A stretch of 64,000 nt of DNA from Thiosulfatihalobacter marinus (GTDB lineage: Bacteria; Pseudomonadota; Alphaproteobacteria; Rhodobacterales; Rhodobacteraceae), in NCBI RefSeq assembly GCF_016019955.1, contig NZ_JAECRZ010000008.1, positions 62,001-126,000 on the forward strand, read 5' to 3'. The notes under the pieces were generated by a model. That model did no database searches and was not told the origin of the DNA. It was given only the letters and a program-made list of their open reading frames with translations. A program made the translations under genes and the position numbers. Shown one piece after another: positions 1 to 20,935 of this stretch (the stretch's first letter is position 1; the number at the start of each line of letters is the position of its first letter).

Positions 1-1
1 C

Positions 2-82
2 ACCTATGCCGTGGTGCTGACCTTCCTGATCATGGTGGTCGTGCTCGCCTTCCGCCCGCAAGGGCTGATGGGAAGGAACTGA
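2..82 (+). CDS. Branched-chain amino acid-type ABC permease LivH, C-terminal end (partial)
   Basis: Only the last 26 codons are in the window; the gene begins upstream. The translated tail is a hydrophobic helix followed by the short basic end FRPQGLMGRN, which is typical of the C-terminus of LivH-family permeases, and it stops 3 bases before livM. It would pair with LivM to form the membrane channel of the Liv-type importer encoded next. The identification rests on this tail and on the following livM-livG-livF order. Confidence 0.8.
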   Translation, partial: TYAVVLTFLIMVVVLAFRPQGLMGRN

Positions 83-85
83 CGC

Positions 86-1150
86 ATGGCCCTGATCGAG
101 AACACCCCCGCCGCCATCGACGCTGTCGAACGCCGTTCGCTGTTCGAGCGCATCCCGGCGGCTTATTGGCTTGTGGGCTTCGTGCTGCTGGTCATGCCGA
201 CATTCGCCTCTCCCTTTGTTCTGTTCCAGATCTTCGGCTGGACCTTCATCCTGGGCATCATCGCCCTGTCGCTGATGTTCCTGGGCGGCTACGGCGGCAT
301 GGTCAGCCTTGCCCAGATGACGTTCGCGGGCAGCGCCGGGTACATGCTGGCGATCTTCGGTCCCAGCGCAATCACCGACATTTCGATGAACTGGCCCTGG
401 TATATCGCCATTCCGCTCGCGCTTGCGCTGGCGGTGCTGTTCGGCACGCTCACCGGCTGGCTGGCGGTGCGCACGGCGGGCATCTATACCATCATGATCA
501 CCCTCGCCATCGCGGCGGCCTTTTTCTATTTCACCCGCCAGAATTATACGATTTTCAACGGTTTCTCCGGCTTCAACGGCGTCCTGCCGCCAAAGCTTTT
601 CGGAGTCGACTGGCGCGGGTCGACGGCGTTCTATTATCTCACCCTGTTCTGGGCCACCCTGTGCTATTTCGCGGTGCTCTACCTGTCGCGCTCGCCGTTC
701 GGGCTGGCGCTTCAGGGTGTGCGCGACAATCAGCGCCGCATGTCGGCACTTGGCTACAACGCCAACGCTCACCGGGTTGCGGCCTATGCCTTTGCCGCGC
801 TGCTGGCCGGGATCGGGGGCATTCTTCTTACCTGGCAATCGGCCCAGATATCGCCCGGCACGGCGGGCATCGGTCCGGCCATCGACATTCTGGTGATTGC
901 CGTCATCGGCGGGCTGCGCCACCCGGTCGGCGCCTTCATCGGTGCGTTCATCTACGTGATCCTGAAAACCTTTGCACTGGATGCGCTGGTCGCCGTCGGC
1001 CTGTCGGGCGAACGCTTTCAGCTGCTGATCGGCCTCGGTTTCCTGGTGATCGTGTTCTGGTCGCCCGACGGCATCCTGGGTCTCTGGGCCAAATGGCGTG
1101 ACAGCCGCGGCAAGGATCCGCTGCGCGACCGCGGGGGGGACACGCCATGA
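86..1150 (+). CDS. Branched-chain amino acid-type ABC transporter permease LivM
   Basis: A 354-residue polytopic inner-membrane permease of the LivM family. About nine to ten hydrophobic segments are visible, and the usual LivM landmarks are present: GGYGGMVSLAQMTFAG near residue 68, the cytoplasmic coupling segment RSPFGLALQGVRDNQRRMSALGY near residues 205-227 with the EAA-loop position, and the C-terminal FWSPDGILGLW. The start at 86 follows a GGAAGGAAC ribosome site. It overlaps livG by 4 bases (ATGA), so the subunits are translationally coupled. Liv-type importers in alphaproteobacteria carry many ligands besides leucine, and the downstream catabolic genes suggest a dedicated substrate here. 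Confidence 0.93.
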   Translation: MALIENTPAAIDAVERRSLFERIPAAYWLVGFVLLVMPTFASPFVLFQIFGWTFILGIIALSLMFLGGYGGMVSLAQMTFAGSAGYMLAIFGPSAITDISMNWPWYIAIPLALALAVLFGTLTGWLAVRTAGIYTIMITLAIAAAFFYFTRQNYTIFNGFSGFNGVLPPKLFGVDWRGSTAFYYLTLFWATLCYFAVLYLSRSPFGLALQGVRDNQRRMSALGYNANAHRVAAYAFAALLAGIGGILLTWQSAQISPGTAGIGPAIDILVIAVIGGLRHPVGAFIGAFIYVILKTFALDALVAVGLSGERFQLLIGLGFLVIVFWSPDGILGLWAKWRDSRGKDPLRDRGGDTP

Positions 1151-1938
1151 ACGCGCCTGCCAAAGTGTCCGACCGACTGAGCGCCACCGGCACCGCCAAC
1201 GCGCTCGAATTGCGCAACGTGTCCAAATATTTCGGCGCCCTCGCCGCGCTTGAAGACATCAACATCACCGTGCGGCCGGGCGAACGCCGCGCCGTGCTGG
1301 GCTCGAACGGGGCGGGCAAGACCACCCTGTTCAACTGTGTCACCGGCGATTTCCTTGCCACAACCGGCAATATCCGCTTCTTTGGCGAGGACATCTCCGA
1401 ATTTCCCCCGCATGAACGTATCCGCCGGGGCCTGCGCCGCACGTACCAGATTTCGCTCCTGTTCACCGGGCTCAGCGTCCGCGACAACATTTACCTGTCC
1501 TGTGTCGGGGTCTCGCGCCGCCGGTTCTCGTTCCTGCGCCCGCGCCGCGACGACGCGCTGATGGCGGCCGCCGACAACCTTGTCGATGTGGTCCACCTGA
1601 CCGACGACCGCGACACGCTTGTCTCCAATCTCAGCTATGGCCAACAGCGCCAGCTGGAAATCGCCATGGCACTGGCCGGGGCGCCGCGCTTCATCCTGTT
1701 TGACGAACCCGCCGCGGGGCTGTCGCCCACCGAGCGCCGCGAACTGGTGGACATCCTCAACGGTCTGCCCGGCCATATGGGCTATATCATCATCGAACAC
1801 GACATGGACGTGGCCCTGCGCGTCGCCGAAAGCGTCACCATGATGCATAACGGGCGCATCTTCAAAGAGGGCAAACCCGCCGAGATCGAAGAAGACCCCG
1901 AGGTCCAGGCCCTGTACCTGGGGGGCGACGATGGCTGA
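1147..1938 (+). CDS. Liv-type ABC transporter ATP-binding protein LivG
   Basis: A 263-residue ABC ATPase. The Walker A motif GSNGAGKTT lies near residue 50, the signature is [15 protein letters not shown], Walker B is [11 protein letters not shown], and the switch histidine lies in IIIEHDMDV. The variant signature LSYGQ and the C-terminal PEVQALYLG are characteristic of LivG. The first 20 residues are a non-homologous extension. It overlaps livM by 4 bases and the next ATPase gene by 8 bases. It would energise uptake together with the LivF half encoded next. Confidence 0.93.
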
Positions 1939-4111
1939 GCGCTCTGCCACCCCCGCCCTCGAGGTCCGCGACCTCAATGTCTATTACGGACGCTCCCACG
2001 CGCTTCAGGGTGTCGATCTCACACTGGATCACGGCGTTTTGTCGGTCGTGGGCCGCAACGGCATGGGCAAGACGACGCTCTGCAAGGCGATCATGGGGCT
2101 GGTTCCGGTCGCCTCGGGAGACATCTCCTTTGGCGGGCAATCACTCTTGGGCAAGACCCCGGCCGAGATTGCCCGGCTGGGCATCGGCTATGTGCCCCAG
2201 GGCCGCCGCCTCTGGCCCTCGCTCACGGTGGACGAACACCTCAAACTTGTTGCCCGGCGCAGCGGAGCATGGTCGGTCGAACGGATCTATTCCACCTTCC
2301 CGCGCCTGGCCGAGCGCAAATCCAACGGCGGCGCTCAGCTGTCGGGCGGTGAACAGCAGATGCTCGCCATTGCCCGCGCCCTCCTGCTCAATCCGCGCCT
2401 GCTGGTAATGGACGAACCCACCGAGGGCCTGGCCCCGGTGATCGTGCAACAGGTCGAAGACATGCTGGTGCGCCTTGGCCGCGAGGGCGAGATCGAGGTT
2501 CTGGTGATCGAACAGAATATCGGTGTGGCCTGCGCCGTGGCCGAAAGCACCGCGATCATGGTCAACGGGCGCATCAACCGGGTCATGGAAAGCGGCGTGC
2601 TGGCCGCCGACCGCGATCTGCAACAGGCCATGCTGGGGGTCGGGCGCCACGCCCATGATGAAACCCCCGTGGCCGCCGCCACCGCCGAAGGCCGCGCGTC
2701 GGAGCAGGCCGCCAGCGGCATCACCCGCGTGTACTTGTCCAACCCCGCCACGCCCACCCGCTGGTCCCGCCCCGTCCCGGTGCGCGTGATCGAGGGCGCG
2801 GCCCGCACCATCACCCCCGAACCGCGCCGCACAGGCACCGGCACCGGCACCTCCGCCCCACCCGCCCGCGCCGCGCGCCGCACCGGCCCGGTTCTGGTCT
2901 GCGGCACGCTGGATACCAAGGGCGCAGAGTTGCGCTTTATCCGCGACATTCTCAAGGGTCAGGGCCTGCCGGTGCGGCTTGTGGATCTGTCCACCTCCGG
3001 CAAACCCTCGGGGGCCGAGGTGCCGCCCCATACCGTTGCCGGGTTTCACCCGCGCGGCGCCGCCGGGGTCTTTACCGGCGACCGGGGCAGCGCCGTCACC
3101 GGCATGACGCGCGCCTTTGAACGCTGGATGGGGGCACAACCCGATATCTCGGGCGTCATCGCCGCCGGCGGCTCGGGCGGCACCGCGCTGGTCGCGCCAG
3201 CCTTCCGCGCCCTGCCGGTGGGCCTGCCCAAGATGATCATCTCCACCGTCGCCTCGGGCAATACCGAACCGTATGTCGGCCCCTCCGACATCACCATGAT
3301 GTATTCGGTCGCCGATGTGCAGGGCATCAACTCGATCACCCGCGAAGTGCTGGGCAACGGCGCCCACGCGCTGGCCGGCATGGTGCGCGCGCGCCAACAG
3401 GCCGGTCAGGCGGCACCCGATGACAAACCCGCCGTGGGCCTTACCATGTTCGGCGTCACCACGCCCGCCGTGCAACAGGTTACTCAGGCGCTGGAGCCGG
3501 ACTATGACTGCCTTGTGTTCCACGCCACCGGCACCGGCGGCAGGTCGATGGAAAAGCTCATGGACAGCGGCATGTTGTCGGCCATCATCGACCTCACCAC
3601 CACCGAGGTGTGCGACATGATCGCGGGTGGCGTCTTTGCCGCCGATCAGGATCGCTTCGGGGCCGCGATCCGCGCGGGCCGCCCTTATATCGGGGCGTGC
3701 GGCGCGCTTGACATGGTGAATTTCGGCGCCCCCGAAACCGTGCCCGCCAAATACCGTGACCGGCTGTTTTACGAACATAACCCGCAAGTCACGCTGATGC
3801 GCACCACGCCCGGGGAAAACACCGCCATGGGCCACTGGATCGGCGAACGCCTGAACCTGATGACCGGCCCTGTACGCTTCTTCCTGCCCACCGGCGGCGT
3901 GTCGTTGCTGGACGCCCCGGATCAGCCCTTCTGGGATCCCCAGGCCGACGCCGCGCTGTTTGCCGCGCTTGAGGAAACCGTGAACCAGAACGCCACGCGC
4001 CAGCTGATCCGCGTGCCCCACAATATCAACGACCCCGAATTTGCTGCCCTGATCGTACAGACTTTCCGCACCTTCCATACCGCGCCCCGGCGCAAGACCG
4101 CAGGAGAATAA
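1931..4111 (+). CDS. LivF ATPase fused to a Tm-1-like (UPF0261) domain
   Basis: A 726-residue two-domain protein. Residues 1-240 are a complete LivF ATPase: Walker [10 protein letters not shown], a Q-loop in YVPQGRRLW, signature [15 protein letters not shown], Walker [11 protein letters not shown]. Residues 241-317 are a low-complexity Ala/Pro/Thr/Arg linker. Residues from about 318 are a full UPF0261 domain beginning [13 protein letters not shown], with [33 protein letters not shown] cut here at two halves: [15 protein letters not shown] then [16 protein letters not shown]0261 is the N-terminal half of tomato Tm-1, the tobamovirus resistance protein, and binds ATP in that setting; its bacterial role is unknown. 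The TIM-barrel half of Tm-1 is the next gene. The fusion physically ties the Tm-1-like unit to an ABC importer. No frameshift is apparent at the junction. Confidence 0.9.
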
Positions 4112-4114
4112 GCC

Positions 4115-4939
4115 ATGTTCGACCGTTCCGAATTGATGACGAGGTTCCGCGCCATGCGCGATGCCGGCACGCCGATCATCGGCGGCGGCGCGGGCACCGG
4201 CCTGTCCGCCAAATGCGAAGAGGCCGGCGGAATTGACCTGATCGTGATCTACAATTCCGGACGGTACCGTATGGCCGGGCGCGGCTCGCTGGCCGGGCTG
4301 ATGCCCTATGGCGATGCCAACGGCGTGGTGATGGAAATGGCCGGCGAAGTGCTGCCCGTGGTCAGGAACACCCCCGTTCTGGCCGGGGTCTGCGCCACCG
4401 ACCCCTTCCGCCTGATGGACAAGTTCCTTGACAGCGTAAAGGCCGCCGGGTTCTCGGGCGTTCAGAACTTTCCCACCGTGGGCCTGATCGACGGCACCTT
4501 CCGGGCCAATCTCGAAGAAACCGGAATGGGCTATGACCACGAGATCGACATGATCGCCATGGCCGCCGAAAAAGACATGCTGACAACCCCTTACGTATTC
4601 TCCGAAGACAACGCCGCCGCCATGGCCAAGGCCGGCGCCGACATCATCGTCGTGCATCTGGGCCTGACAACCGGCGGCTCCATCGGCGCCGAAACCGGCG
4701 TCACGCTGGAACAGGCCCCGGCCCTGACCGATGCCTGGGCGGCCGCCGCGCTCGAGGTCAACCCGGACGCCATCATCCTGGTCCATGGCGGCCCCGTCGC
4801 CATGCCGGAAGACGCCGAATTCGTGCTGAAGAACACCACCAACTGCCATGGCTTCTATGGCGCGTCGTCCATGGAACGTCTGCCGACCGAGATCGCGCTG
4901 ACAGAACAGACGGCGAAATTCAAGAAGATCGGGCGCTAA
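4115..4939 (+). CDS. PEP-hydrolase/TIM-barrel protein, partner half of Tm-1
   Basis: A 274-residue soluble protein of the phosphoenolpyruvate-hydrolase-like TIM-barrel family. Recognisable segments are [33 protein letters not shown] near residues 22-54, here given only as [24 protein letters not shown] and [13 protein letters not shown], then [24 protein letters not shown] and the late HGGPV. In plant and fungal Tm-1 proteins this domain is the C-terminal half, fused to UPF0261; here it is a separate gene 3 bases after it, with ribosome site CAGGAGA. Enzymatic activity in this family is poorly established; a C-C or C-P bond lyase/hydrolase acting on a degradation intermediate is possible. The exact reaction is not inferable. 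Confidence 0.88.
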
Positions 4940-4963
4940 GGCCCCCGAAGGGAGGAAAGACAG

Positions 4964-7900
4964 ATGACAGGGCAACTCATCGGACAACTGATCCTGTGGC
5001 TGATCGCCGCCGTGATCGTAATCTTCATCCTCTACTGGGTGATGCACTGGCTCTATCGCCGCTCCACCAAGGAGGTCGCCTTCGTGCGCACCGGGTTCCT
5101 TGGGGAAAAGGTGGTGATCGACGGCGGCGCCTTCGTGTGGCCGATCATCCACGACATCACCCCGGTCAACATGAACTCGATGCAGCTGGGCGTAACCCGC
5201 GAACGCGACGAAGCGCTGATCACCAAGGATCGCATGCGCGTTGACGTGGACGCCGAATTCTACGTGCGTGTTGCCCAGACCAAAGCGTCCGTCAGCCTCG
5301 CCGCCGCCACCCTGGGCCGGCGCGCGCTGGAACCGGAACGCCTGCACACCCTGCTCGAAGGCAAATTCGTCAGCGCCCTGCGCACCGTGGCCAGCGAAAT
5401 GACGATGGAGGAACTGCACGAAAACCGGAACGCCTATGTTGCCCGCGTTCTGGAGGCCGCGCAGGAAGGGCTGAACAAGAACGGGCTGGAACTGGAAAGC
5501 GTTGCCGTCACCGATATCGACCAGACCGATATCGAATATTTCAACCCGTCCAACACGTTTGACGCCGTCGGCCTGACCCGTGTCATCGAATCGATCGAAG
5601 AGCGCCGCAAGCTGCGCAATGACATCGAGCAGGACACGATGATCCGCATCCGCGCCCGCAATCTCGAAGCCGAGAAACAGGCGCTCAACATCGAACGCGA
5701 AAGCGAAGAGGCCCGGCTGGAACAGGAACGCGATGTCGAATTCCGCCGCGCCCAGCAGCGCGCCGAACTTGCCCGCGAACGTTCGGAGCGCGAGAAGGAG
5801 GCCGAACAGGCCACGCTCTCGTCGCGCGAGGCCATCGAAACCGCGCGTATCGCCAACGAACACCAGATCGCCGAGGCCCGCATCGCCTCGGAACGCGACA
5901 TCCGCCAGCAGGAAATCGAGCGCCAGAAGGTGGTGGACGAGGCCGAGATCGCCACCCATGAAGCGATCGAAAAGGCGCGCATCAGCCAGGAAAAGACCCT
6001 TACATCCGAGCGCATCAAGACCCGAAAGGAAACCGACGCCGCCGAGATCGCCGCCAAGGAAGCCATCGAAAAGGCGCGCATCGCACAGGAAAGGGCCATT
6101 ACCGAAGCCCGCATCGCCAAGGACCGTGAAACCCAAAGCCAGGACATCGAACGCCAGCGCATCGTGGACGAGGCCGACATCTCCGCCCGCGAGGTCGTCG
6201 AACGCGCCCGTATCGCGCAGGAAAAGGTGATCACCCAGGACCGGATCGCGCTCGAACAATCCACCAAGGAACGCGAGATTGCCCGCAACCTCGCCGTGCA
6301 GGAGGCCGAGATCGCCAGCCGCGAAGCCGCAGAAAAACTGCGTATCGCGCAGGAAAAGACGGTGAATGCCGAACGCATTGCCTCGGATCGCGAAACCCGG
6401 TCGCTGGAAATCGAGCGCCAGAAAGTTCTGGAAGAGGCCGAAATCGCCAGCCAGCAGGCCACCGAGGCCGCGCGCATCGCCCGCGAAAAGGCGCTGAGCG
6501 CCGAACGCATCGCCGCCGATCAGGACACCCGCTCGCGCGAGATCGAACGCCAGCGGATTCTCGACGAGGCCCAGATCGCCGCCGCCGAGGAAACCTCGCG
6601 GACCCGTATCGCCCAGGAAGAACGCATCCGGGCGCTGGAAATCGCCCGCAACCAGGCCGTGGACGAGGCCGAGATCGCCGCCCGCGAAGCCGTCGAAAAG
6701 GCCCGCATCGCACAGGACCGGCAGCTTGCGTTTGATCGCATCTCCGCCGCCGAGGCCACCCAGGAGCGCGAGGTCGCCAAGGTCGCCGCGCTGGATGCCG
6801 CGCAGATCGCCGCCAAGGAAGCGACCGAGGCCCGGCGCATCGCACAGGAAAAGGCCACCACCGCGGACCGTATCACCTACGAAAAGGAAACCCGCGAACT
6901 GGAGATTGCCCGCAATCAGGCCGTGCAAGAGGCCGAGGTCGCCTCTGCCGAGGCGGTTGACGCCGCGCGCATCGCCAAAGAGGCCAAACTCACCGTCAAA
7001 CGCATCGAAAGCGAGGAGCGCACGCGCGAACGCGACGTGGCCAAGGCCACGGCGCTCGAAGCGGCCGAAATCGCCCGCGCCGAGGCCACAGAGGCCGCGC
7101 GCATCGCCAAGGAGAAGAAGCTCGCCGCCGACCGCATCGCCTATGAACAGGACATGCGCGAACGCGAGATCGCCCGCAACCGCGCCCTTGATGCCGCCCA
7201 GATCGCCGCGGACGAGGCGATCGAGGCCGCCCGCGTGAGCAAGGCAAAAACGGTCGATGCCGAAAAGATCCTTGCCGAACAGGAACTCGACGCCAGGAAA
7301 CTGGAGCGCAAGAAGGTGCTCGAACAGCTCGAAATCGCCCGCGTCCAGGCGCTGCGCGAGGCCGAGATCGCCAGCCAGGAGGATGTCGAACGCGCAAGGA
7401 TCGCTTCCGAACGCGGGCTGGACGACGCCCGTATCGGCCACCAGACCGAACGTCGCAAGCTGGAGATCCAGCGCGAGAAACTGGTCGAGGAGGCGACCAT
7501 GGAAAAGGCGATCGCGCTGTATCAGAAATCGCTTGAGGAAAGCGCCGCCGCCGCCGAGGCCGACATTGCCCGCGCCCGCGCCGTGGAGGCCGCCGAAAAG
7601 GTTGCCACCACCCGCGAGACCGAAGAAGCGGCCCGCCGCAAGTCGGTGGACGTGGTCCTGGCCGAAAAACTGGCCGAGGAGAAACGCATCGCCGCCGAGG
7701 CCGAAAAGGTCCGTGCCGCTGTCGAGGCCGAGGCCCAAAAGCTCATCAACGAGGCCGAGAACGTGCTTACGGACGAGGCCCGCCACAGCCTGTTCAAGCG
7801 CAAGATGCTGGAACATGTCGAAGGCATCGTCGCCGCGTCGGTCAAGCCGCTGGAAAAGATCGACGAGATCAAGATCATGCAGCTGGGCGGCAACGGCGCC

Positions 7901-8173: not shown

Positions 8174-8611
8174 ATGGCCCGTGTCTATACGTCCACCGTG
8201 ATCGGCGCCGGCGCCGGTCGTGTCTGGGAAAGGGTGCGCGATTTCAACGCCCTGCCCCGCTGGCATCCCAAGATCCGCGACAGCCGGATCGAAGACGCCC
8301 TTCCCTCTGACAAGGTCGGCTGCATCCGCAACTTCAACCTGCAAAACGGCGACACGATCCGCGAACAGCTTCTGGGCCTGTCCGATTATGACATGTTCTG
8401 CACCTACTCGATCCTCGAAAGCCCGATGCCGCTGACGGATTACATCGCCACGTTGCGGCTGACCCCGATCACCGATGGCGACCGGTGCTTTGCCGAATGG
8501 TCCGCCGAGTTCGAATGCGACCCCGCCGCCGAGGACGATCTTGTCAGCGGCATCGGCGCGGATGTCTTCCAGGTCGGCTTTGATGCCCTCAAACGGCATT
8601 TCGGGGGCTGA
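8174..8611 (+). CDS. SRPBCC (START/Bet v1-like) protein, copy 1
   Basis: A 145-residue SRPBCC-fold protein with the usual N-terminal pattern TSTVIGAGAGRVWERVRDF, then W-H-P, the GCIRNFNLQNGDTIREQL strand pair and LLGLSDYD, and a long C-terminal helix ending DALKRHF. The fold provides a deep hydrophobic ligand cavity. CoxG-like members of this superfamily accompany molybdenum hydroxylase operons; CoxG is thought to help membrane anchoring, and other members bind or shuttle hydrophobic ligands. The gene starts directly after the SPFH stop codon with no gap and is 2 bases from its paralogue. Confidence 0.85.
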   Translation: MARVYTSTVIGAGAGRVWERVRDFNALPRWHPKIRDSRIEDALPSDKVGCIRNFNLQNGDTIREQLLGLSDYDMFCTYSILESPMPLTDYIATLRLTPITDGDRCFAEWSAEFECDPAAEDDLVSGIGADVFQVGFDALKRHFGG

Positions 8612-13233: not shown

Positions 13234-13273
13234 TAATGATACCTCTTCTCCCGATACACCGCTCTCGAATAAT

Positions 13274-13334
13274 GGCCCCCGGATCGCGCGCGATCCGGTT
13301 CGCGCCCGGCCCCGCCCCCCAGGGCGGGCGCGAA
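13274..13334 (+). repeat. Palindromic intergenic repeat, family B copy 1
   Basis: In the 222-base gap between the large-subunit C-half and the MoxR-type gene. It contains a perfect 18-bp palindrome, CGGATCGCGCGCGATCCG (13280-13297), then TTCGCGCCCG and a second inverted repeat in CCCGCCCCCCAGGGCGGG followed by CGCGAA. The same ordered blocks occur at 24827-24932, also just after a plus-strand gene and in the same orientation. A further GGGCGCGAACCTGCCG at 13418 resembles the end of copy 2. No gene is seen in the rest of the gap. Confidence 0.7.
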
Positions 13335-13455
13335 TTGTGCCACCGTCTTCACATCCCGCACCGTCAGGCGATTTTTCCGATGTCGTGGCAAGCTGCAAAG
13401 CGCCCACCCTCGGGGCCGGGCGCGAACCTGCCGTCAATCCACTGCGTAACCTGAC

Positions 13456-14337
13456 ATGCCCGTCCGCTCCACCATATCCGGCATCTCCAGCCCCTCCGAC
13501 CTGCAAAAGGCCCTGCAAGGCGCGCAGTATCTCGCCGATGACGGGCTGGCCACCGCCGCCTATCTCGCGCTGGCCTTGGGCAAACCCCTCCTGCTCGAAG
13601 GCGCGCCGGGCGTGGGCAAGACCGAAGCCGCCAAGGCCATAGGCGCGGTCCTTTCCCGCCAGATCAGCCGCCTGCAATGTTTCGAGGGCATCGACGCCGC
13701 GGCAGCCATCTATGAATGGAACTACCCCCGCCAGATGCTCGCGATCCGGCAGGCGGGCGACAGCTACATCAATATCTACGGCGACCAGTTCCTGCTCGAA
13801 CGCCCCCTTCTGGGTGCCCTGCGCAACCCCTCCGATACGCTCCTGCTGATCGACGAAATCGACCGCTCCGACCACGAGTTCGAAGCGTTCCTCCTCGAAT
13901 TCCTCTCGGATTTCACCATCTCAATTCCCGAAACCGGCACCGTGCGCGCCGCGCAGCCCCCGGTCGTGGTGCTCACCTCCAACCGCACCCGCGACCTGCA
14001 CGAGGCGCTGCGCCGCCGCTGCGTCTATCACTGGATCGACTACCCCGATCCCTCGCTTGAGTCCCAGATCGTCATGGCCCGCGCCTCCTCGGTGGCGCAA
14101 GGCACTGCCGATGCCGTGGTCGCCGCCGTGGGCCGCCTGCGCGCCGAACCGCTGGCCAAGCCCCCCGGCGTGGCCGAATCCATCGAATGGGCCGAGGCCG
14201 CAACCCTTTTGCACGATCAGGGCAACCCGTGGCCCGATGCTTTCCTGCGCTCTATCGGCGTAGCGCTCAAGGATCACGACGATCTGACCTACATGCACCC
14301 CAATCTGGGACATGTCATTCCGGGCATGGCGGCATGA
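13456..14337 (+). CDS. MoxR-type AAA+ ATPase (CoxD-like)
   Basis: A 293-residue AAA+ ATPase with Walker A GAPGVGKTEAAK near residue 52, Walker B LLLIDEIDRSDHEFEAFLLEFL, sensor 1 VVLTSNRTRD and an arginine-finger segment ALRRRCVYHWIDYP. This is the CoxD/MoxR type: such ATPases work with a VWA-domain partner to mature or activate enzymes, and CoxD of CO dehydrogenase operons inserts the active-site cluster. Here it overlaps the VWA gene by 4 bases and follows a molybdenum hydroxylase, so maturation of that enzyme is the natural role. Confidence 0.92.
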   Translation: MPVRSTISGISSPSDLQKALQGAQYLADDGLATAAYLALALGKPLLLEGAPGVGKTEAAKAIGAVLSRQISRLQCFEGIDAAAAIYEWNYPRQMLAIRQAGDSYINIYGDQFLLERPLLGALRNPSDTLLLIDEIDRSDHEFEAFLLEFLSDFTISIPETGTVRAAQPPVVVLTSNRTRDLHEALRRRCVYHWIDYPDPSLESQIVMARASSVAQGTADAVVAAVGRLRAEPLAKPPGVAESIEWAEAATLLHDQGNPWPDAFLRSIGVALKDHDDLTYMHPNLGHVIPGMAA

Positions 14338-15434
14338 CCCTTCCGCGGGCGGCATATCCCTTTGTCGAATTCCCGGCGATCCTGCGCGGCCACGGCTTTG
14401 CCATCGCGCCGGACCAGACCATGGGCTTTATCGAGGCGATCGGCCTGCTTGGTCCCCGCGACATGGCCGATATCCATGCCGCCGGTCTCGCCATGCTCGC
14501 CATCCCTCACGACCGCCGGGCGGAATTCGACGCACTGTTCAACGCCTATTTCCTTGGCCGCACCGTCACCGCCCCCGCCGGGGGCGAAGACGACGACGCG
14601 GTCGAAGTGCACGAACCCGACGGCGGCCAGCAGCTGATCGAGGCCGACGAGGATGAAACCGAGGCGGGCGGCGAGGCCGTCACCGCCGAACGCCTTTCGC
14701 ATCGCCAGTTCGCCGAAGCCGATGAAGACGCCACCCTGCGCGCGCTGCGCCGCGACGCCCCCGCCCGCCTGCCCCGCCGCCGCTCTTACCGCCGCGCGCC
14801 CGCGCGCCATGGCGACCGGCTGAACATGCGCCAGACATTGCGCGAGGCCGTGCGCCGCGACGGCGAGGTCTTCACCCTGCCCCGAACCCGCCGCAAGACC
14901 CGCCAGCGCCGGATCGTGCTGCTTGTCGATGTTTCCGGCTCCATGCAGGAACGCACCGATACCACCATGCGCTTTGCCCACGCGCTGGCACAGTCCGCCG
15001 ACCGGATCGAGGCTTTCACCCTTGGCACCCGCCTCACCCGCATCACCCCGGCCCTGCGCATATCCCAACCCGACGAGGCCCTGGCCCGCGTCGGCGCACT
15101 GGTGGCCGATTTCGACGGCGGCACCCGGATCGGCGACGCGCTCGATGCCTTCCTGAGCGTGCCGCGCTTTGCCGGATTCGCCCGCGGCGCGGCTGTGGTG
15201 GTGCTGTCGGACGGGTTGGAACGCGGCACTCCCGACGCGATGATCCACGCCGTCCAGCGCCTCTCGCGCCTGGCCTGGCGGCTCGACTGGCTCACGCCGC
15301 TGGCTGCGGATGCCGCCTACACGCCGCGCACCGAGGCGCTGAACGCCGTCCTGCCATGGCTCGACAGCCTGTCCGACGGCAGCCGCCTGTCATCCATCAC
15401 AGCCCATGTCCTGAACCTCGCGAGGGCCGCATGA
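14334..15434 (+). CDS. VWA domain protein (CoxE-like)
   Basis: A 366-residue partner of the MoxR-type ATPase. Residues 1-90 are the CoxE-type N-terminal helical domain; residues about 80-165 are acidic then Arg-rich; the C-terminal VWA domain starts QRRIVLLVDVSGSM, whose DxSGS is a metal-ion-dependent adhesion site, followed by T in GTRL and D in VVVLSDGLERG. The start at 14334 overlaps the stop of the ATPase gene (ATGA). In CO dehydrogenase operons CoxD and CoxE act together in post-translational activation. It also overlaps the next gene by 4 bases. Confidence 0.92.
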   Translation: MTLPRAAYPFVEFPAILRGHGFAIAPDQTMGFIEAIGLLGPRDMADIHAAGLAMLAIPHDRRAEFDALFNAYFLGRTVTAPAGGEDDDAVEVHEPDGGQQLIEADEDETEAGGEAVTAERLSHRQFAEADEDATLRALRRDAPARLPRRRSYRRAPARHGDRLNMRQTLREAVRRDGEVFTLPRTRRKTRQRRIVLLVDVSGSMQERTDTTMRFAHALAQSADRIEAFTLGTRLTRITPALRISQPDEALARVGALVADFDGGTRIGDALDAFLSVPRFAGFARGAAVVVLSDGLERGTPDAMIHAVQRLSRLAWRLDWLTPLAADAAYTPRTEALNAVLPWLDSLSDGSRLSSITAHVLNLARAA

Positions 15435-16327
15435 TCGACGCCCATCACCATATCTGGCGGCAAAAGGATCTGCCCTGGCTGCTTGGCCCCGAACAGCCCC
15501 GCATCTTCGGCCCCTATGCCGCGATCAAGCGCGACTACGAGATCGGCGAATACCTGTCCGACATCAAGGGCACCGGCATCACCGGATCCGTCTATGTCCA
15601 GGCCAACTGGGCGCCCAACTGGGCCGCCGACGAGGTTGCCTGGGTGCAATCCGTCGCCGACCGGCACGGCTGGCCCCACGCCATTGTCGGCTATGCCGAT
15701 TTCACCGCCGATGACGTGCGCCCCCAGCTTGAGAAACTGAAACCCCACGCCCTGATGCGCGGTATCCGCCAGCAATTCCACTGGCACGAAAATCCGCTTT
15801 ATCGTTTCGCCGCCCGCCCCGACCTGCCCGCCGATCCTTTGGTTCGCAAAAACATCGCGCGCCTTGCCGATTACGGCTGGTGCTTTGACCTTCAGGTCTT
15901 CCCGTCCCAGATGCGGGACGCCGCCGCCCTTGCGCGCGCCTGCCCCGATGTCACCTTCATCCTGCAACATGCCGGGATGCTCGAAGACACATCCGAAACC
16001 GGCTGGACACAATGGCGCGACGGAATGCGGCGCCTGGCGGAATGCGGCAACGTCACCACCAAACTCTCGGCCTTCGGCACCTTCATCCACCGCAACGACT
16101 CCACGTTCATCCGGCAGATGATCACCGAAACCGAAAACATCTTTGGCGCCGACCGCTGCATGTTCGGCTCCAACTTTCCGATCGAGAAACTCTGGACCAG
16201 CTACCCGGACCTGTTCAACGCCTTCCGGCAAGGCGCATCCAAACTCGGCAAGAAGGCGCAACAGGCGATCTTTCACGACACCGCCGCCCGCGTCTACCAC
16301 CTTCAAGAAACGACTTCAGGGAGATAA
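15431..16327 (+). CDS. COG3618-type amidohydrolase (TIM-barrel lactonase/decarboxylase family)
   Basis: A 298-residue metal-dependent hydrolase of the amidohydrolase-2 group that includes L-fuconolactonase and 2-pyrone-4,6-dicarboxylate lactonase. The metal-binding start is MIDAHHHIW; further landmarks are GYADF, RGIRQQFHWHE, the late histidine in FILQHAGML, and FGSNFPIEKLW near residue 240. The ATG at 15431 overlaps the VWA gene by 4 bases. It would hydrolyse a lactone or related ring in the cytoplasm. Together with the next two genes it forms a group of three hydrolases. The substrate is unknown. Confidence 0.88.
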   Translation: MIDAHHHIWRQKDLPWLLGPEQPRIFGPYAAIKRDYEIGEYLSDIKGTGITGSVYVQANWAPNWAADEVAWVQSVADRHGWPHAIVGYADFTADDVRPQLEKLKPHALMRGIRQQFHWHENPLYRFAARPDLPADPLVRKNIARLADYGWCFDLQVFPSQMRDAAALARACPDVTFILQHAGMLEDTSETGWTQWRDGMRRLAECGNVTTKLSAFGTFIHRNDSTFIRQMITETENIFGADRCMFGSNFPIEKLWTSYPDLFNAFRQGASKLGKKAQQAIFHDTAARVYHLQETTSGR

Positions 16328-16331
16328 CAAG

Positions 16332-17180
16332 ATGGCTTTGACAATCCACGTGCTTGATTACGGCGATATCGAGCTGGAAACCTCGTTCCTCGTTCTGGGC
16401 CATGAATGCGGCCGCGTGCGCCGCGTGCCGGTCTATGGCTTCCTCATTCTGGGCGGCGAATACCCGGTGGTGGTCGATACCGGCTATCGCGACAACGCGA
16501 TCATGGAAACGCTGGGGATGCGCGGCCTGCAATTCCACGACAACATGATCGAGAACCAACTGGCCAGGCACGGGCTGAAACCGGGCGATATCCGCTATAT
16601 CCTGCACACCCACCTGCATATCGACCACGCCGGCAAGGACGATCTCTTTCCGATGAACACCACCGTCGTGCTGAACCGGCGCGAGATGGAATTCTCGGTC
16701 TCGGGCATCATGTACCCGCAATATCCCAAGCCCGACATCAAGCACCTTGTGGATCGCATCTACGAAGACGGCGCCATGCGGTTTCTGGATCTGGAAATCA
16801 CCCAGGCCGAGGAAATCATCCCCGGCGTCTGGTGCGAGGCCGCCGGCGCCCATACCGAAGGCTCCATGAACGTGATCGTGGAAACCGCCGAAGGGCTGGC
16901 CTGCATCTGTGGCGACGTGATCTATGATTTCAACGACCAGATCGTGAATCAGGTGCGCGTGAACAACTTCATGGAACCGCAGGTCACCGGCAATCACTCC
17001 GGCTCCAAACGCGCGGAAAAGGCCGCCATCAAACGCCTGCTGAACAACTATACCTTCCTGCTGCCGGTGCATGACAAACCCGCCCGGATCGAGAACCAGC
17101 AGGTGGTGGGCCGCCTCGGCATGTCCGTGCCCGGCCCGATGAGCGAAACCCTGCCCGCGCGGCAGTGGTTCCCGGTCTGA
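16332..17180 (+). CDS. MBL-fold hydrolase (N-acyl-homoserine-lactonase-like)
   Basis: A 282-residue metallo-beta-lactamase-fold protein. The dinuclear zinc motif HTHLHIDHAG lies near residue 95, with a later ligand His in AAGAHTEGSMNV, Asp in CICGDVIYD and His in LLPVHDKPA. Members closest in architecture are annotated as AiiA-like lactonases, but in a catabolic operon the ligand is more likely an operon metabolite than a quorum signal. The start at 16332 gives the conserved MALTIHVLDYGDIE. It lies 4 bases after the amidohydrolase stop. Confidence 0.88.
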   Translation: MALTIHVLDYGDIELETSFLVLGHECGRVRRVPVYGFLILGGEYPVVVDTGYRDNAIMETLGMRGLQFHDNMIENQLARHGLKPGDIRYILHTHLHIDHAGKDDLFPMNTTVVLNRREMEFSVSGIMYPQYPKPDIKHLVDRIYEDGAMRFLDLEITQAEEIIPGVWCEAAGAHTEGSMNVIVETAEGLACICGDVIYDFNDQIVNQVRVNNFMEPQVTGNHSGSKRAEKAAIKRLLNNYTFLLPVHDKPARIENQQVVGRLGMSVPGPMSETLPARQWFPV

Positions 17181-17209
17181 CCCAAGCGCCCTCCAACAAG
17201 GACAGGACG

Positions 17210-18757
17210 ATGCCCCACAAAGCGACAGATTCCCGTTTCGCCTCCCTGATCGATATCAACGCGCCCGTGGCCCAGCTTGGCTCCGGCTTCACCTTCACCG
17301 AAGGCCCGCTCTGGCATCCGACCGAAAACCATCTCCTGTTCTCCGACATGCCCGCCGATGTGCGCCGCCGCTGGACACCGGACGGCCAGGTGACAGAGGT
17401 GATGCGCCCCTCCAACAAGGGCAACGGCATGACCTATGATGCCGATCTCAACCTGCTGGTCTGCGAACACGCCACCAGCTCGGTCGCCCGGTTCCGCCCC
17501 GATGGCACGCGCGACGTGCTGGCCAGCCATTTCGACGGCAAGGAACTGAACTCGCCCAACGACATCTGCGTCGGGCGCAACGGCGCGATCTACTTCACCG
17601 ATCCCACCTATGGCCGTATGCCGGGCTTTGGCGTCGAACGCCCGCTTCAGCAGGGGTTCCAGGGCGTCTACATGCTCCCCCCGGGGCACCGTCCCGGCGA
17701 CGAGGCCATACTGGTCTGCGACCGCTACATGTTCACCCAGCCCAACGGCCTGTGCTTTTCTCCCTGCGAACGCTGGATGTGGGTCAACGATACCGAACAG
17801 GCCAATATCCGCATGTTCGACATCGCCGGGGATGGCCGCCTGACCAATCCACGCATCTTTGCCAGCGGCATCAAGGACGCCTTCCGCCCCGGCGTGCCCG
17901 ACGGCATGAAGGCCGACAGGAACGGCAATGTCTATGTCACCGCCCCCGGGGGCGTCTGGGTCTATTCCTTCGAGGGGCTCAAGCTGGGCGAAATCGAAGT
18001 ACCGCAAATGGTCGCCAACCTGCATTGGGGCGGCGATCGCTGGGACACGCTCTTCATGTGCGCCACCACCGGGCTCTATTCCGTCAAGACCCGCACGCAG
18101 GGGCGCGAAGAACCCTTCATGCGGTCCGGCGGCGCAGCCGCGCCCCTTCCCGAAGGCCGGATCGATCCGCGCCGCACCGCCCTGATCATTCAGGACATGC
18201 AGAATGACGTGATCATCGACGGCGGCGCCTTTGCCGACAGCGGCGCGCCCGATCACGCCCGGGATCAGAACGTTGTGGCCAATTCCCGCCGCCTCGCCGA
18301 GGCCTGCCGCGCCGCCGGCATTCCGGTGCTGCATGTCTGGTTCGTCTGCGAACCGGGCCATCCCGGGATGCCCGACAATTGCGGGCTGTTCCGCGGCGCG
18401 GTCCAGGCCAACGCCCTGGTGCGCGGCACCTGGGGCGCCGCACCCGTATCCGGGCTGGAGCCGCAAACCGGCGACATCGTCATTGAAAAAATGACCATGT
18501 CCGCCTGGGCCTCGTCCAAACTGGAAACCGTGCTCGCCACCCATGGCGTGGACACGATCATCAATACCGGCGCCTGGACCAACATGAGCGTCGAACACAC
18601 CGCGCGCACCGCCGCCGACAAGGGCTTTCGCGTCATCCTGCCCGAAGACGCCTGCGCCACCATGAACGCCGACTGGCACAACGCCTCGATCAACTACGCC
18701 ATGCAGAACGTTGCCGATGTCACCAATGTCGATGCCGTGATCGCCGCCATCGGATAA
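17210..18757 (+). CDS. SMP-30/gluconolactonase fused to an isochorismatase-like hydrolase
   Basis: A 515-residue fusion. Residues 1-300 are an SMP-30/gluconolactonase beta-propeller: FTFTEGPLWH (metal ligand E31), ELNSPNDICVGRNG and GVPDGMKADRNGN supply the usual Glu, Asn and Asp ligands. Residues about 315-515 are an isochorismatase-fold (cysteine hydrolase) domain, with D329 in LIIQDMQND and K427 in IEKMTMSAW at the catalytic Asp and Lys positions. The position of the nucleophilic Cys, normally TNxCV, is Ser460 in WTNMSVEHTAR. The second domain may therefore be a non-cysteine isochorismatase-type enzyme, or inactive. The start at 17210 follows AAGGACAGG. A lactonase and an amidase/vinyl-ether hydrolase in one chain suggests consecutive steps. 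Confidence 0.9.
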   Translation: MPHKATDSRFASLIDINAPVAQLGSGFTFTEGPLWHPTENHLLFSDMPADVRRRWTPDGQVTEVMRPSNKGNGMTYDADLNLLVCEHATSSVARFRPDGTRDVLASHFDGKELNSPNDICVGRNGAIYFTDPTYGRMPGFGVERPLQQGFQGVYMLPPGHRPGDEAILVCDRYMFTQPNGLCFSPCERWMWVNDTEQANIRMFDIAGDGRLTNPRIFASGIKDAFRPGVPDGMKADRNGNVYVTAPGGVWVYSFEGLKLGEIEVPQMVANLHWGGDRWDTLFMCATTGLYSVKTRTQGREEPFMRSGGAAAPLPEGRIDPRRTALIIQDMQNDVIIDGGAFADSGAPDHARDQNVVANSRRLAEACRAAGIPVLHVWFVCEPGHPGMPDNCGLFRGAVQANALVRGTWGAAPVSGLEPQTGDIVIEKMTMSAWASSKLETVLATHGVDTIINTGAWTNMSVEHTARTAADKGFRVILPEDACATMNADWHNASINYAMQNVADVTNVDAVIAAIG

Positions 18758-18853: not shown

Positions 18854-18857
18854 CGCC

Positions 18858-19601
18858 TCAATAGGTCGCCCGCCCGCCCGACAGATCGAACACCGCGCCG
18901 GTGGCAAAGGAATTCTCCGGCCCCGCCAGCCACACGATCATCGCCGCCGCCTCGGCGGTTTCCAGGAACCGGCCCCGCGGGATCTTGGACAGCATATAGT
19001 CAATATGCTCCTGGCTCATCTGGTCGAATATCGGCGTTCGCGCCGCCGCCGGCGTCACACAATTGACCGAAATGTCATAGTCGGCCAGTTCCTTGCCCAG
19101 TGACTTGGTGAACCCGATCACCCCCGCCTTCGATGCCGAATAGGCACAGGCATTGGGATTGCCTTCCTTGCCCGCAATGCTGGCGATGTTGACGATCCGG
19201 CCATAGTTGCGCTCCTTCATGCCCGCAATCACCGCCTTGTTCACGTGATAGGTGCCGGTCAGGTTGATATCGACGATCTGCCGCCAGGCGTCATTGTCAT
19301 AGTCTTCCACCGGCGCATTCGGCCCGGCGATGCCCGCGCTGTTCACCACGCTGTCGATATGCCCGAACGCCTCCCGCGTCCGGCGCGCCGCCGCCAGCAC
19401 CGCATCCCAGTCGGTGATGTCACATTCCACCACCACGACCCCGGCCCGTGCGGGTTCCTCGTCCACGGCCCTCTGCGCCACCCGCGCATTGTGATCCCAG
19501 ATCGCCACCCGCGCACCCTTGGCCAGAAACGCATCCACAACGGCCAGACCAATGCCCTGAGCGCCACCCGTTACCACGGCACATGTTCCCAAAAACGTCA
19601 C
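18858..19601 (-). CDS. Short-chain dehydrogenase/reductase (SDR)
   Basis: A 247-residue classical SDR. The NAD(P)-binding motif is TGGAQGIG near residue 11; D at the end of strand 2 (AIWDHN) suggests NAD preference; NSAGIAG is the NNAG-type motif. Catalytic Ser and Tyr-Lys are in NIASIAG and YSASKAG. It starts with GTG (19601), supported by the ribosome site GGAGAAGGCG on the minus strand. It is transcribed away from the FAH gene and converges on the degradative operon. A 3-oxoacyl- or hydroxy-acid dehydrogenase in the same pathway is plausible. Confidence 0.88.
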   Translation of the reverse strand: MTFLGTCAVVTGGAQGIGLAVVDAFLAKGARVAIWDHNARVAQRAVDEEPARAGVVVVECDITDWDAVLAAARRTREAFGHIDSVVNSAGIAGPNAPVEDYDNDAWRQIVDINLTGTYHVNKAVIAGMKERNYGRIVNIASIAGKEGNPNACAYSASKAGVIGFTKSLGKELADYDISVNCVTPAAARTPIFDQMSQEHIDYMLSKIPRGRFLETAEAAAMIVWLAGPENSFATGAVFDLSGGRATY

Positions 19602-19783
19602 CGCCTTCTCCTTCCCGGATTGTCACAACCGCGCCGGATCGGCGCTGCTCCCTCACCCTAGGGCACCCAAATCCGGGGAACTTATCCGAAACTCTCTTTT
19701 TTGAGGCAATATGAGGTGTTTTGCTCTTTGCAATCGCCGGTCTCGCCGCGCATGATCCGACAAACTCAAATCGGACAGGTTTC
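19602..19783. promoter_or_regulatory. Divergent promoter region between SDR and FAH genes
   Basis: This 182-base gap must hold promoters for both flanking genes. It includes an AT-richer stretch (19681-19735) with ACTCTCTTTTTTGAGG, and an imperfect inverted repeat TCCGA-N10-TCGGA at 19756-19775 just before the FAH ribosome site. A further TCCGA lies at 19685. These could be operator arms for a pathway regulator, but no -35/-10 pair is clear enough to assign. Confidence 0.35.
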
Positions 19784-20935
19784 ATGACCAATTTTCTCAA
19801 CAACACCGACCAGGCCGGCACCTTTCTGGGGCGCGTCTGGAACCCGCAGGCCGGAGGCCCCGCTGTGGTCACGCTGCGCAACGGCCAGGTGATCGACATC
19901 ACCGCACGCACAGCCCCCACCCTGCGCGACATTCTCGAAATGGACGATCCCGTGGCCTATACCCGCGCCGCGCCGGGCAGCGATCTCGGCGCGCTGAGCG
20001 CTCTGTGCGCCGCGCCCGTGGGCGATGCCGGCACCTGCCATTTCCTCGCCCCCTGCGATCTTCAGGCCGTCAAGGCCTGCGGCGTCACCTTTGCCCGATC
20101 CATGGTCGAACGCGTGATCGAAGAGCGCGCCGCCGGTGATCCCCAAGCCGCCGAAGCGATCCGCGCCCGTATCGGCGCGCTGATCGGCGACAGCCTGAAA
20201 AACATCCGTGCCGGCTCTCCCGAGGCCGAAGCCGTCAAGCAGGCCCTGATCAAGGAAGGTCTGTGGTCGCAATATCTCGAGGTCGGGATCGGCCCCGATG
20301 CCGAGGTGTTCTCCAAGGCCCAGCCGCTCTCCTCGGTCGGCCCGCAGGCCCTGATCGGCCTGCATCCCATGTCCACCTGGAACAACCCCGAACCGGAAAT
20401 CGTGCTCGCCGTCACCTCCGACGCGCGTATCGTCGGCGCCACGCTGGGCAATGACGTGAACCTGCGCGATGTCGAAGGCCGGTCCGCATTGCTGCTCTCC
20501 AAGGCCAAGGACAACAACGCGTCCTGCGCCATCGGCCCGATGCTGCGCCTGTTCGATGACAGCTTCTCGCTGGATGACGTGCGCCAGGCCGAGATCGACC
20601 TCACCGTCACCGGCACCGACGGGTTCACCCTCACAGGCAAATCCTCGATGAACCAGATCAGCCGCGATCCCGCCGATCTCGTATCGCAGACCATCGGCCG
20701 CCATCACCAATATCCCGACGGTCTGATGCTGTTCCTTGGCACGCTCTTTGCCCCCACCCAGGACCGCGACGTGCCCGGCGAAGGCTTTACCCACAAACTG
20801 GGCGACGTGGTCACGATCTCCGCGCCCGGCCTTGGCGCGCTGACCAACACCGTGGCCCTGTCCACCCAATGTCCGCCATGGACCTTCGGCATCAGCCATC
20901 TGATGCGCAACCTTGCCGCGCGCGCCCTGATCTAG
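19784..20935 (+). CDS. Fumarylacetoacetate hydrolase family protein (COG3802/GguC-like)
   Basis: A 383-residue FAH-superfamily enzyme. The C-terminal catalytic domain carries the metal-binding pattern PEPEIVLAV near residue 205, then GATLGNDVNLRDVEGRSALL (a typical AraD1/GguC-type block) and AKDNNASCAIGP. The longer N-terminal half contains AVKACGVTFARSM. FAH-superfamily enzymes hydrolyse, hydrate or decarboxylate 2-keto or acylpyruvate intermediates. The start at 19784 follows GGACAGG. The position next to the degradative cluster suggests a final C-C cleavage or dehydration step, giving products for central metabolism. Confidence 0.85.
   Translation: MTNFLNNTDQAGTFLGRVWNPQAGGPAVVTLRNGQVIDITARTAPTLRDILEMDDPVAYTRAAPGSDLGALSALCAAPVGDAGTCHFLAPCDLQAVKACGVTFARSMVERVIEERAAGDPQAAEAIRARIGALIGDSLKNIRAGSPEAEAVKQALIKEGLWSQYLEVGIGPDAEVFSKAQPLSSVGPQALIGLHPMSTWNNPEPEIVLAVTSDARIVGATLGNDVNLRDVEGRSALLLSKAKDNNASCAIGPMLRLFDDSFSLDDVRQAEIDLTVTGTDGFTLTGKSSMNQISRDPADLVSQTIGRHHQYPDGLMLFLGTLFAPTQDRDVPGEGFTHKLGDVVTISAPGLGALTNTVALSTQCPPWTFGISHLMRNLAARALI

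Follow-up and report, generated by a model that had tools for sequence, protein, structure and literature searches.

The first 18,757 nucleotides (nt) of a stretch of Thiosulfatihalobacter marinus DNA carry a one-strand gene set that includes a molybdenum hydroxylase whose large subunit, CoxL, is split into two proteins. The N-terminal half (CoxL-N) ends in a flexible tail that closes with a short peptide conserved at protein level. The tail occurs together with genes for a Liv-type ATP-binding cassette (ABC) importer, the two halves of a Tm-1-like protein, a giant flotillin and SRPBCC proteins, collectively termed the platform below, and in a sister system the platform accompanies a different oxidoreductase. 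The tail peptide on the split CoxL, the link between tail and platform, and the sister system with its swapped oxidoreductase are new here. The analysed stretch, referred to as the window, comprises 64,000 nt (contig C65:62001-126000) of a 4.16 Mb genome in 66 contigs; coordinates are those of the window, on the + strand unless stated otherwise. A set of about seventeen genes seems to be kept in fixed order by many marine and soil bacteria. The initial annotation of the window regarded this set as a candidate undescribed system, and no published description was found in a literature search that was thin on subscription journals. No paper was found that joins flotillin with CoxL or a Tm-1 protein as whole words; PMC5028733 alone combines two of these terms, and flotillin is not one of them. 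Among the matches listed no flotillin/SPFH paper joins SRPBCC or a molybdenum hydroxylase. A homarine-type cluster was considered and set aside, as homarine is not mentioned among the literature matches listed.

Conservation of the gene set

The recurring order is livF:UPF0261–PEP-hydrolase-like–flotillin–SRPBCC1–SRPBCC2–coxM–coxS–coxL(N)–coxL(C)–MoxR–CoxE–amidohydrolase–lactonase–SMP30:isochorismatase, where a colon denotes a fused gene, and, within the reach of the contigs, almost every tail-bearing relative examined keeps it. Within the family of the window, the C-terminal half of CoxL (CoxL-C) is encoded in 15 of 149 genomes, its own genome included, with one copy each. The same order surrounds it in 12 of the 15; the contigs of the other three end too early or are frameshifted. 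A collection of 84,980 species contains 366 stretches that encode a CoxL-C relative. The best 80 of these 366 were mapped and show the same order within contig limits, the exceptions being single hydrolase losses and one locus with an upstream assembly gap (L076). The mapped relatives come from Rhodobacteraceae-type, Rhizobiales-type and other alphaproteobacterial genomes, with a few gammaproteobacterial bins (Granulosicoccaceae, Arenicellales) that are metagenome-assembled genomes in which binning errors are possible. Further samples yielded CoxL-C relatives in 5 of 289 genomes of the class, in 15 of 378 of the phylum, where a more distant query was used, and in 49 of 297 of an order with relatives; among 25 neighbourhoods fetched from the latter, the platform is present in 18 and absent from 7.

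At tail-bearing loci with enough flanking sequence, the platform genes are present in 32/32 (livF), 95/96 (UPF0261), 92/96 (PEP_hydrolase), 96/97 (flotillin), 100/101 (SRPBCC1) and 101/102 (SRPBCC2) cases, and the genes of the hydroxylase and its maturation in 103/104 (CoxM), 103/104 (CoxS), 103/103 (MoxR) and 98/98 (CoxE), followed by the hydrolases in 93/96 (amidohydrolase), 75/79 (metallo-beta-lactamase-fold protein, MBL) and 71/73 (SMP30), some genomes being counted twice. Two further loci (L122, L273) seemed to lack CoxL-N owing to the BLAST composition filter, which acts on the low-complexity tail. The gene and its tail are present in both, the tail having been read by hand, and both loci were left out of these counts and of the tail/flotillin tally given below.

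Because the order recurs across the family, the species collection and the tail-bearing loci, a chance association is excluded. That the importer, UPF0261, flotillin, SRPBCC, hydroxylase and hydrolase genes form one system, as the initial annotation proposed, is strongly supported. The neighbourhood search found the blocks together, with flotillin and UPF0261 each missing from a single tail-bearing locus, and the converse outcome, in which the Liv/Tm-1, SPFH and hydroxylase blocks normally lie apart, did not materialize for this locus. The single-system reading is thus supported, and it is also sharpened. The blocks are separable elsewhere: the platform is found with a different oxidoreductase, and the hydroxylase is found without the platform, in which case it is tail-less.

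The CoxL-N tail and its C-terminal peptide

The tail spans residues 506-623 of CoxL-N (11853..12206). It is rich in Pro and Ala, variable in length and poorly conserved, and is predicted to be disordered, with a predicted local distance difference test score (pLDDT) under 50 over these residues. Counted from a conserved DGDMK motif, the extra stretch of tail-bearing proteins is 126-233 residues long, compared with 44-48 residues in seven measurable tail-less relatives. The end of the tail is conserved as F-x-S-G-x-R-R-R or R-F-S-S-[ILV]-x-G-x-R-R-R at the C-terminus, and reads RFISGTRRR in the window (12180..12206). An R-[RK]-R ending is present in 87 of 89 CoxL-N ends; the other two are broken open reading frames (L123, G063).

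The codons were analysed in 80 distinct CoxL-N ends, chosen by the R-[RK]-R ending itself. The last Arg uses five codons among them, Gly(-5) is kept in 75/80 with all four codons, and Ser(-6) in 73/80 with four codons. In the window, AGGAGG (12198-12203) encodes Arg-Arg and is also the Shine-Dalgarno sequence of the CoxL-C gene, 7 nt before its ATG, and this overlap of coding and Shine-Dalgarno sequence (12198-12211) is kept in most loci. The Arg triplet is also kept at five loci (L074, L106, L109, L110, L118) where the next gene lies 11-772 nt past the tail stop. As the codons vary widely at the retained last Arg, Gly and Ser, and the Arg triplet survives even ahead of displaced genes, selection acts on the peptide. 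A search for a second tagged protein with one form of the motif and all Arg codons gave 13 matches in 8 genomes, 5 of which are CoxL-N ends, against 28 for a reversed-pattern control, so that none could be identified.

Tail-less relatives and the platform

At all eight loci with full flanking sequence that encode the split hydroxylase without flotillin (L219-L221, L259-L261, L272 and L278), the tail is absent as well, and SPFH domain, UPF0261 and PEP_hydrolase were not found at these loci with the composition filter switched off. Two additional relatives (L199, L200), whose contigs are cut upstream, are also tail-less, such that tail-less split halves are seen in 10 relatives altogether. A tally of distinct loci with at least 7 kb upstream, from which identical CoxL-C sequences were removed, contains 86 loci with tail and flotillin, one with tail and without flotillin (L076, the assembly gap), and 8 with neither. 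A rapidly computed tree of 55 CoxL-C sequences needs one change to account for the tail, on a branch with a Shimodaira–Hasegawa-like approximate likelihood ratio test (SH-aLRT) support of 100.

As the two halves are split in relatives without a tail, the split is older than the tail. MoxR and CoxE are kept in 7 of the 8 tail-less loci with full flank, which associates the tail with the platform rather than with maturation; L272 has no MoxR, CoxE or SRPBCC gene. The tail-less loci likewise speak against the tail being recognised by MoxR/CoxE or holding the split halves together. PEP_hydrolase is disfavoured as a docking partner, since it was lost at three loci (L264, L267, L268) where tail and flotillin remain. 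L219, L220 and L221 represent a third arrangement, in which the tail-less split hydroxylase is accompanied by AraC and retains one SRPBCC gene; in L219 and L220 (class 3) the hydroxylase lies behind a sugar-type ABC importer.

A sister system with a fused oxidoreductase

PF09370, the family of the PEP_hydrolase-like protein, was found in 29 of the 149 family genomes, 14 of which also have a CoxL-C match. One further genome (G147) has CoxL-N on a short contig, and in another (G022) a short contig ends inside flotillin. Three loci (L166, L168, L171) encode the importer, UPF0261, PEP_hydrolase, flotillin and SRPBCC, and no hydroxylase. In the remaining genomes, UPF0261/PEP_hydrolase has different neighbours, PEP_hydrolase stands alone, or the contig is very short.

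In L166 and L168, SRPBCC2 is fused in frame, via a Pro/Ala linker, to a zinc-type dehydrogenase that resembles NADPH:quinone reductases, an assignment that falls below the curated family cut-off (258 of 348 bits). SRPBCC2 and the dehydrogenase share one frame at 12/12 loci having the enzyme, among 15 loci examined; 10 of these 12 were picked for a long open frame in SRPBCC2, and only L166 and L168 are unselected. The ten selected loci have the order (FAH-hydrolase-amidohydrolase)-LivHMKGF:UPF0261-(PEP_hydrolase)-flotillin-SRPBCC1-SRPBCC2::dehydrogenase, as far as the contigs extend. Two additional loci fetched with a short SRPBCC2 have neither flotillin nor dehydrogenase. The SRPBCC1 and SRPBCC2 groups are common to both systems (tree support 92 and 97, respectively). 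At 8 loci the sister flotillin is 730-744 amino acids (aa) long, L171 standing apart with 529 aa; the hydroxylase-linked flotillin measures 614-1190 aa in 75 loci, those under 600 aa being left out. Five genomes (G481, G541, G994, G852, G882) have, at separate places, the sister platform and a CoxL-C of the type seen in tail-less loci, the hydroxylase neighbourhood having been fetched for all except G541.

Organization of the gene set in the window

The genes are tightly packed on one strand from LivM to SMP30:isochorismatase. Content, strand and spacing agree with the initial annotation, which described a one-strand set at 1-18757 with short overlaps or gaps and a single 222-base gap before MoxR. 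Spacings were calculated from open reading frame coordinates, with starts chosen by homology. Neighbouring genes overlap by 4 nt (LivM/LivG, SRPBCC2/CoxM, CoxS/CoxL-N, MoxR/CoxE and CoxE/amidohydrolase) or 8 nt (LivG/LivF:UPF0261), abut (flotillin/SRPBCC1, 0 nt), or are separated by 1 nt (CoxM/CoxS and CoxL-N/CoxL-C), 2 nt (SRPBCC1/SRPBCC2), 3 nt (UPF0261/PEP_hydrolase), 4 nt (amidohydrolase/MBL), 24 nt (PEP_hydrolase/flotillin), 29 nt (MBL/SMP30:isochorismatase) and 222 nt (CoxL-C/MoxR). The last gap (13234-13455) exceeds that of the mapped family relatives and contains perfect GC-rich palindromes; no promoter-like and no T-tailed terminator-like site was found in it.

The split molybdenum hydroxylase

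The enzyme comprises a CoxM-like FAD subunit (9057..9854; PF00941, PF03450), a CoxS-like [2Fe-2S] subunit (9856..10341; PF01799, PF00111), CoxL-N with the MoCoBD_1 domain (10338..12209; PF01315, PF02738) and CoxL-C with the MoCoBD_2 domain (12211..13233; PF20256, 2e-54). The FAD, 2x[2Fe-2S] and Mo-binding domains are all present, which places it in the xanthine dehydrogenase family. The best PDB match of CoxL-N is 3HRD_A (3.9e-56), and 3HRD is the second-best match of CoxL-C (6.4e-41). 3HRD is the nicotinate dehydrogenase of Eubacterium barkeri. MoCoBD_1 and MoCoBD_2 are separate proteins in the window, divided where the 3HRD large and medium subunits are divided. Hydroxylases of other substrates match the CoxL halves with scores similar to those of nicotinate dehydrogenase. 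Glu292 of CoxL-C is invariant in 14/14 sequences and aligns with the GVGE Glu of 3HRD_B; this position presumably holds the catalytic Glu in the xanthine dehydrogenase family, making Glu292 the candidate catalytic residue. In-frame TGA codons in CoxL-C at three loci suggested selenocysteine, but they are terminal stops, except in one case, which is due to a frameshifted contig. The form I CO dehydrogenase motif, reported as (A/S)YRCS(F/L)R (PMC13240472), is absent from 12/12 intact rows, which read TAMRGFG at that place.

The enzyme genes are followed by those of a MoxR/CoxD-like AAA+ ATPase (13456..14337; PF07728, PF00004), for which the best NCBIfam model, MadB, scores below cut-off, and a CoxE-like VWA protein (14334..15434; PF05762, 6e-47).

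Flotillin and SRPBCC proteins

The giant flotillin (4964..8173, 1069 aa) contains an SPFH domain (PF01145, 2.4e-20) followed by a Flot domain (PF15975, 2.1e-33) and belongs to the flotillins by these domains; its NCBIfam FloT score is 48 of 700 bits. About 14 hendecad-type copies of a 44-residue (4 x 11) repeat were identified, with a lag-44 identity of 0.35 compared with at most 0.17 in 50 shuffles. The protein ends in a conserved C-terminal module behind a Gly-rich linker.

SRPBCC1 (8174..8611; PF10604, weaker PF03364) is a helix-grip ligand-binding protein, and SRPBCC2 (8614..9060) is assigned to PF10604 as well. The AlphaFold2 model of SRPBCC1 has a pLDDT of 94.8, and its nearest folds are XoxI and the PYR/PYL (abscisic-acid) receptors. 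Judged from this model, SRPBCC1 probably binds a small hydrophobic ligand, a quinone being one option.

Importer and Tm-1-like pair

The importer genes in the window encode the LivM permease (86..1150; PF02653, 7.9e-34), the LivG ATPase (1147..1938; PF00005) and the LivF ATPase. The initial annotation listed an importer beside both halves of a Tm-1-like protein; both halves are indeed present, and the N-terminal half, UPF0261, is not a separate protein: it is fused to LivF in a single 726-aa chain (1931..4111; PF00005, PF06792 2.4e-58, PF23189 1.2e-89). This chain is 719-736 aa long in 12/12 regions carrying the gene and matches the Tm-1 structure 3WRY (5.8e-96). The linker between LivF and UPF0261 (about 2645-2885) contains a conserved 20-residue block. 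The C-terminal half is a PEP_hydrolase-like TIM barrel (4115..4939; PF09370, 2.5e-129), and by these matches the pair belongs to the UPF0261/Tm-1 family. UPF0261/PEP_hydrolase pairs also occur without flotillin. The two domains co-evolve in bacteria according to one report (PMC5028733). In contrast to the near-universal pairing stated there (PMC5028733), UPF0261 is kept and PEP_hydrolase is missing in L291, L292, L293 and L295 as well as in the three tail-bearing loci named above. Conversely, G126 C5 (L165) encodes a PEP_hydrolase 89% identical to that of the window, with no UPF0261 or other cluster genes within the 20 kb fetched.

Hydrolases and flanking genes

The amidohydrolase-2 of lactonase type (15431..16327; PF04909) has L-fucono-1,5-lactonase as its best NCBIfam model, below cut-off. 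It is followed by MBL, a lactonase-like hydrolase (16332..17180; PF00753) that resembles AiiA and 4-pyridoxolactonase, also below cut-off, and by an SMP-30/gluconolactonase fused to an isochorismatase-like domain (17210..18757; PF08450, PF00857). The fused protein is 510-536 aa long in 13 of the 14 regions with the gene, the remaining one being a broken contig. Its isochorismatase-like domain has a Ser within a conserved NMSVEHT motif, at a position where such domains usually have the catalytic Cys; as Ser replaces the expected Cys, amide hydrolysis by this domain is doubtful.

An SDR dehydrogenase and an FAH-family protein had been described as following the set. Both adjoin it, the former on the opposite strand (18858..19601, - strand) and the latter on the same strand (19721..20935; PF01557), and neither is core: the accessory SDR gene is found at 19/95 loci and regions, whose flanks often stop short of its position, and the FAH gene at 3/95. 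An open reading frame for a small membrane-protein-like product (~160 aa) follows SMP30:isochorismatase in 9/95 loci and regions (e.g. G109 region 23240-23728).

Just upstream of the window (region L009), LivK, LivH, an Fe-alcohol dehydrogenase, an aldehyde dehydrogenase and an AraC regulator are encoded on the same strand. The proteins matched by LivK are extracellular binding proteins of branched-chain, urea or unnamed type; some of these PDB entries contain aromatic acids. The nearest families of the two dehydrogenases, both below cut-off, are 4-hydroxybutyrate dehydrogenase and 2-oxoglutarate semialdehyde dehydrogenase, respectively. Among the 95 loci, most of which are too short upstream, the aldehyde dehydrogenase is found only at the window's own locus; two more loci elsewhere show it. 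L009 642-8175 contains UbiD-like, OsmC-like, BKACE-like, cyclase-like and TRAP-type transporter genes on both strands (families assigned by eye), and is probably a separate catabolic locus. Within the window, 47712-51835 (- strand) encodes a glycine-betaine-type ABC transporter (OpuAC binding protein, ATPase and permease) unrelated to the gene set.

Proposed mechanism and alternative explanations

A fixed set of importer, scaffold and SRPBCC genes that accompanies one fused and one tagged redox enzyme is most simply accounted for by a membrane platform into which redox enzymes plug. We lean, by a modest degree, towards a modular platform that couples uptake to oxidation, with the redox enzyme tethered by a tail or by fusion. 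The Liv-type importer with LivF:UPF0261 would import a small organic compound, and the flotillin would build a membrane scaffold beside it, where the two SRPBCC proteins may bind a hydrophobic ligand (substrate or quinone). A flexible Pro/Ala-rich tether would hold the redox enzyme at the scaffold. At this locus the enzyme would be the nicotinate-dehydrogenase-like split hydroxylase, matured by MoxR/CoxE, the N half of which ends in the putative docking peptide; in the sister system it would be the quinone-reductase-like dehydrogenase covalently fused to SRPBCC2. The peptide may dock to SRPBCC2, flotillin or LivF:UPF0261, the most likely partner being SRPBCC2, by analogy with the fusion, or flotillin, and electrons may pass to a quinone. 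Two or three lactonase-type enzymes would then hydrolyse the hydroxylated product. As for the chemistry, a guess is hydroxylation beside a ring heteroatom or of a cyclic hemiacetal, with the resulting lactone passing to the amidohydrolase, MBL and SMP30 enzymes; that a heterocycle or cyclic hemiacetal is in fact oxidised to a lactone is unlikely. The membrane-associated compartment envisaged in the initial annotation agrees, as far as gene content can tell, with the tail, the SPFH protein and the sister-system fusion, and the ring opening of one compound that accompanied it is likewise a guess. In its general form, in which a flotillin-based platform accepts redox enzymes by SRPBCC2 fusion or by the F-x-S-G-x-R-R-R peptide and the CoxL split provided a free internal C-terminus, the proposal is more tentative, and we would sooner doubt it than rely on it.

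Several observations weigh against the tethering platform. It is deduced from genes, and docking, localisation and activity are predictions. On the tree, the joint gain of tail and platform is a single change that provides one independent pair, such that evolution has not replicated their association. A few loci depart from the motif: it is degenerate in L071 and L079, and G108 and G116 have Tyr. After correction for descent, tail length is weakly related to flotillin length over 70 loci (r 0.25, p 0.034; rank test p 0.076), and with so weak a correlation the idea that tether length is matched to flotillin length was set aside. In L171, the platform half lacks SRPBCC2 and the dehydrogenase, and no oxidoreductase was found beside it. 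A precedent in favour of the platform is the SRPBCC protein CoxG, which has been proposed to direct CO dehydrogenase to the membrane, where electrons would pass to quinone (PMC4240915), and which is described elsewhere as quinone-binding (PMC13240472). CoxG is absent from the best 50 folds for SRPBCC1, which are mostly PYR/PYL receptors and structural-genomics proteins. As the SRPBCC proteins belong to PF10604 and no CoxG fold match was obtained, quinone carriage is not specifically supported, and their identification as CoxG is borne out by neither Pfam family nor fold, the tie being at superfamily level only.

The alternative that survives best, although we regard it as unlikely, is an ordinary catabolic operon of co-regulated, physically independent proteins, in which flotillin and SRPBCC would protect or fine-tune the membrane or respiration, and the tail would act locally, for instance in joining the halves or in Mo-cofactor insertion by MoxR/CoxE. 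Every part does belong to a known family, the joint gain of tail and platform is a single event, and bacterial SPFH proteins have been linked to respiration and membrane organisation (PMC12005517, PMC13086221). A local job is nevertheless at odds with the 10 relatives whose split halves have no tail, with the 3HRD chain, which has no room for one, and with the retention of MoxR and CoxE at all but one of the tail-less full-flank loci, and physical independence is at odds with the fusion of an oxidoreductase to SRPBCC2 in the sister system. It is improbable that the tail binds the membrane directly, its basic-aromatic peptide inserting into acidic lipids with no protein partner: the motif does combine basic residues with Phe and small ones, and may resemble MARCKS-type membrane-binding segments, but the fixed Ser-Gly-x-Arg-Arg-Arg spacing to the C-terminus is stricter than expected of membrane binding, and tail-less relatives manage without it. 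The tail end as a functionless by-product of the AGGAGG Shine-Dalgarno sequence, for which the Arg-Arg overlap speaks and AGG is indeed the commonest codon at -2 and -3 (58/80 and 61/80), is rejected on the codon analysis and the displaced genes described above.

If the tethering platform is correct, it would be a membrane-bound counterpart of microcompartment cargo targeting. The roles of flotillin and of UPF0261/Tm-1 are long-standing questions, and at this locus the two stand in a fixed gene order with a single importer and a single redox enzyme. The short peptide, the natural tail-less control and the sister with its covalent fusion make the idea of an enzyme-holding flotillin directly testable.

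Comparison with known systems

Encapsulin and microcompartment cargo systems similarly combine a flexible linker with a short conserved terminal peptide on the enzyme; no shell protein was found among the neighbours recurring in at least 5 loci, the genomes themselves not having been searched for shells. The Oligotropha carboxidovorans cox cluster shares with the window a CoxMSL-type enzyme, AAA+ and VWA maturation proteins (CoxD, CoxE) and an SRPBCC protein. The window differs in the lack of the CO dehydrogenase motif, the split CoxL and the other Pfam family of its SRPBCC proteins, and it adds the importer, UPF0261, flotillin and lactonases. The Eubacterium barkeri nicotinate dehydrogenase is the closest known enzyme; its Mo subunit likewise consists of a large and a medium protein, with the break at the corresponding position. 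The alignment of the 3HRD large chain extends to residue 416 of 425, which leaves no space for a long tail. The platform-free (class 3) loci resemble the Eubacterium barkeri enzyme more closely than does the enzyme of the window. In plant Tm-1 and Tm-1-like proteins, UPF0261 and the TIM-barrel domain are adjacent as they are here, but in the window the TIM barrel is encoded separately and UPF0261 forms one chain with LivF. A precedent for the proposed scaffold is the closed cage, 32 nm in width and 22 nm in height, that human flotillins build at the membrane (PMC11260169). The window flotillin has the SPFH and Flot domains and the long coiled region in common with the flotillin cages (human Flotillin1/2, bacterial FloT type), and is distinguished from them by ~600 residues of 44-residue repeats and by the constant presence of importer and redox-enzyme genes beside its own.

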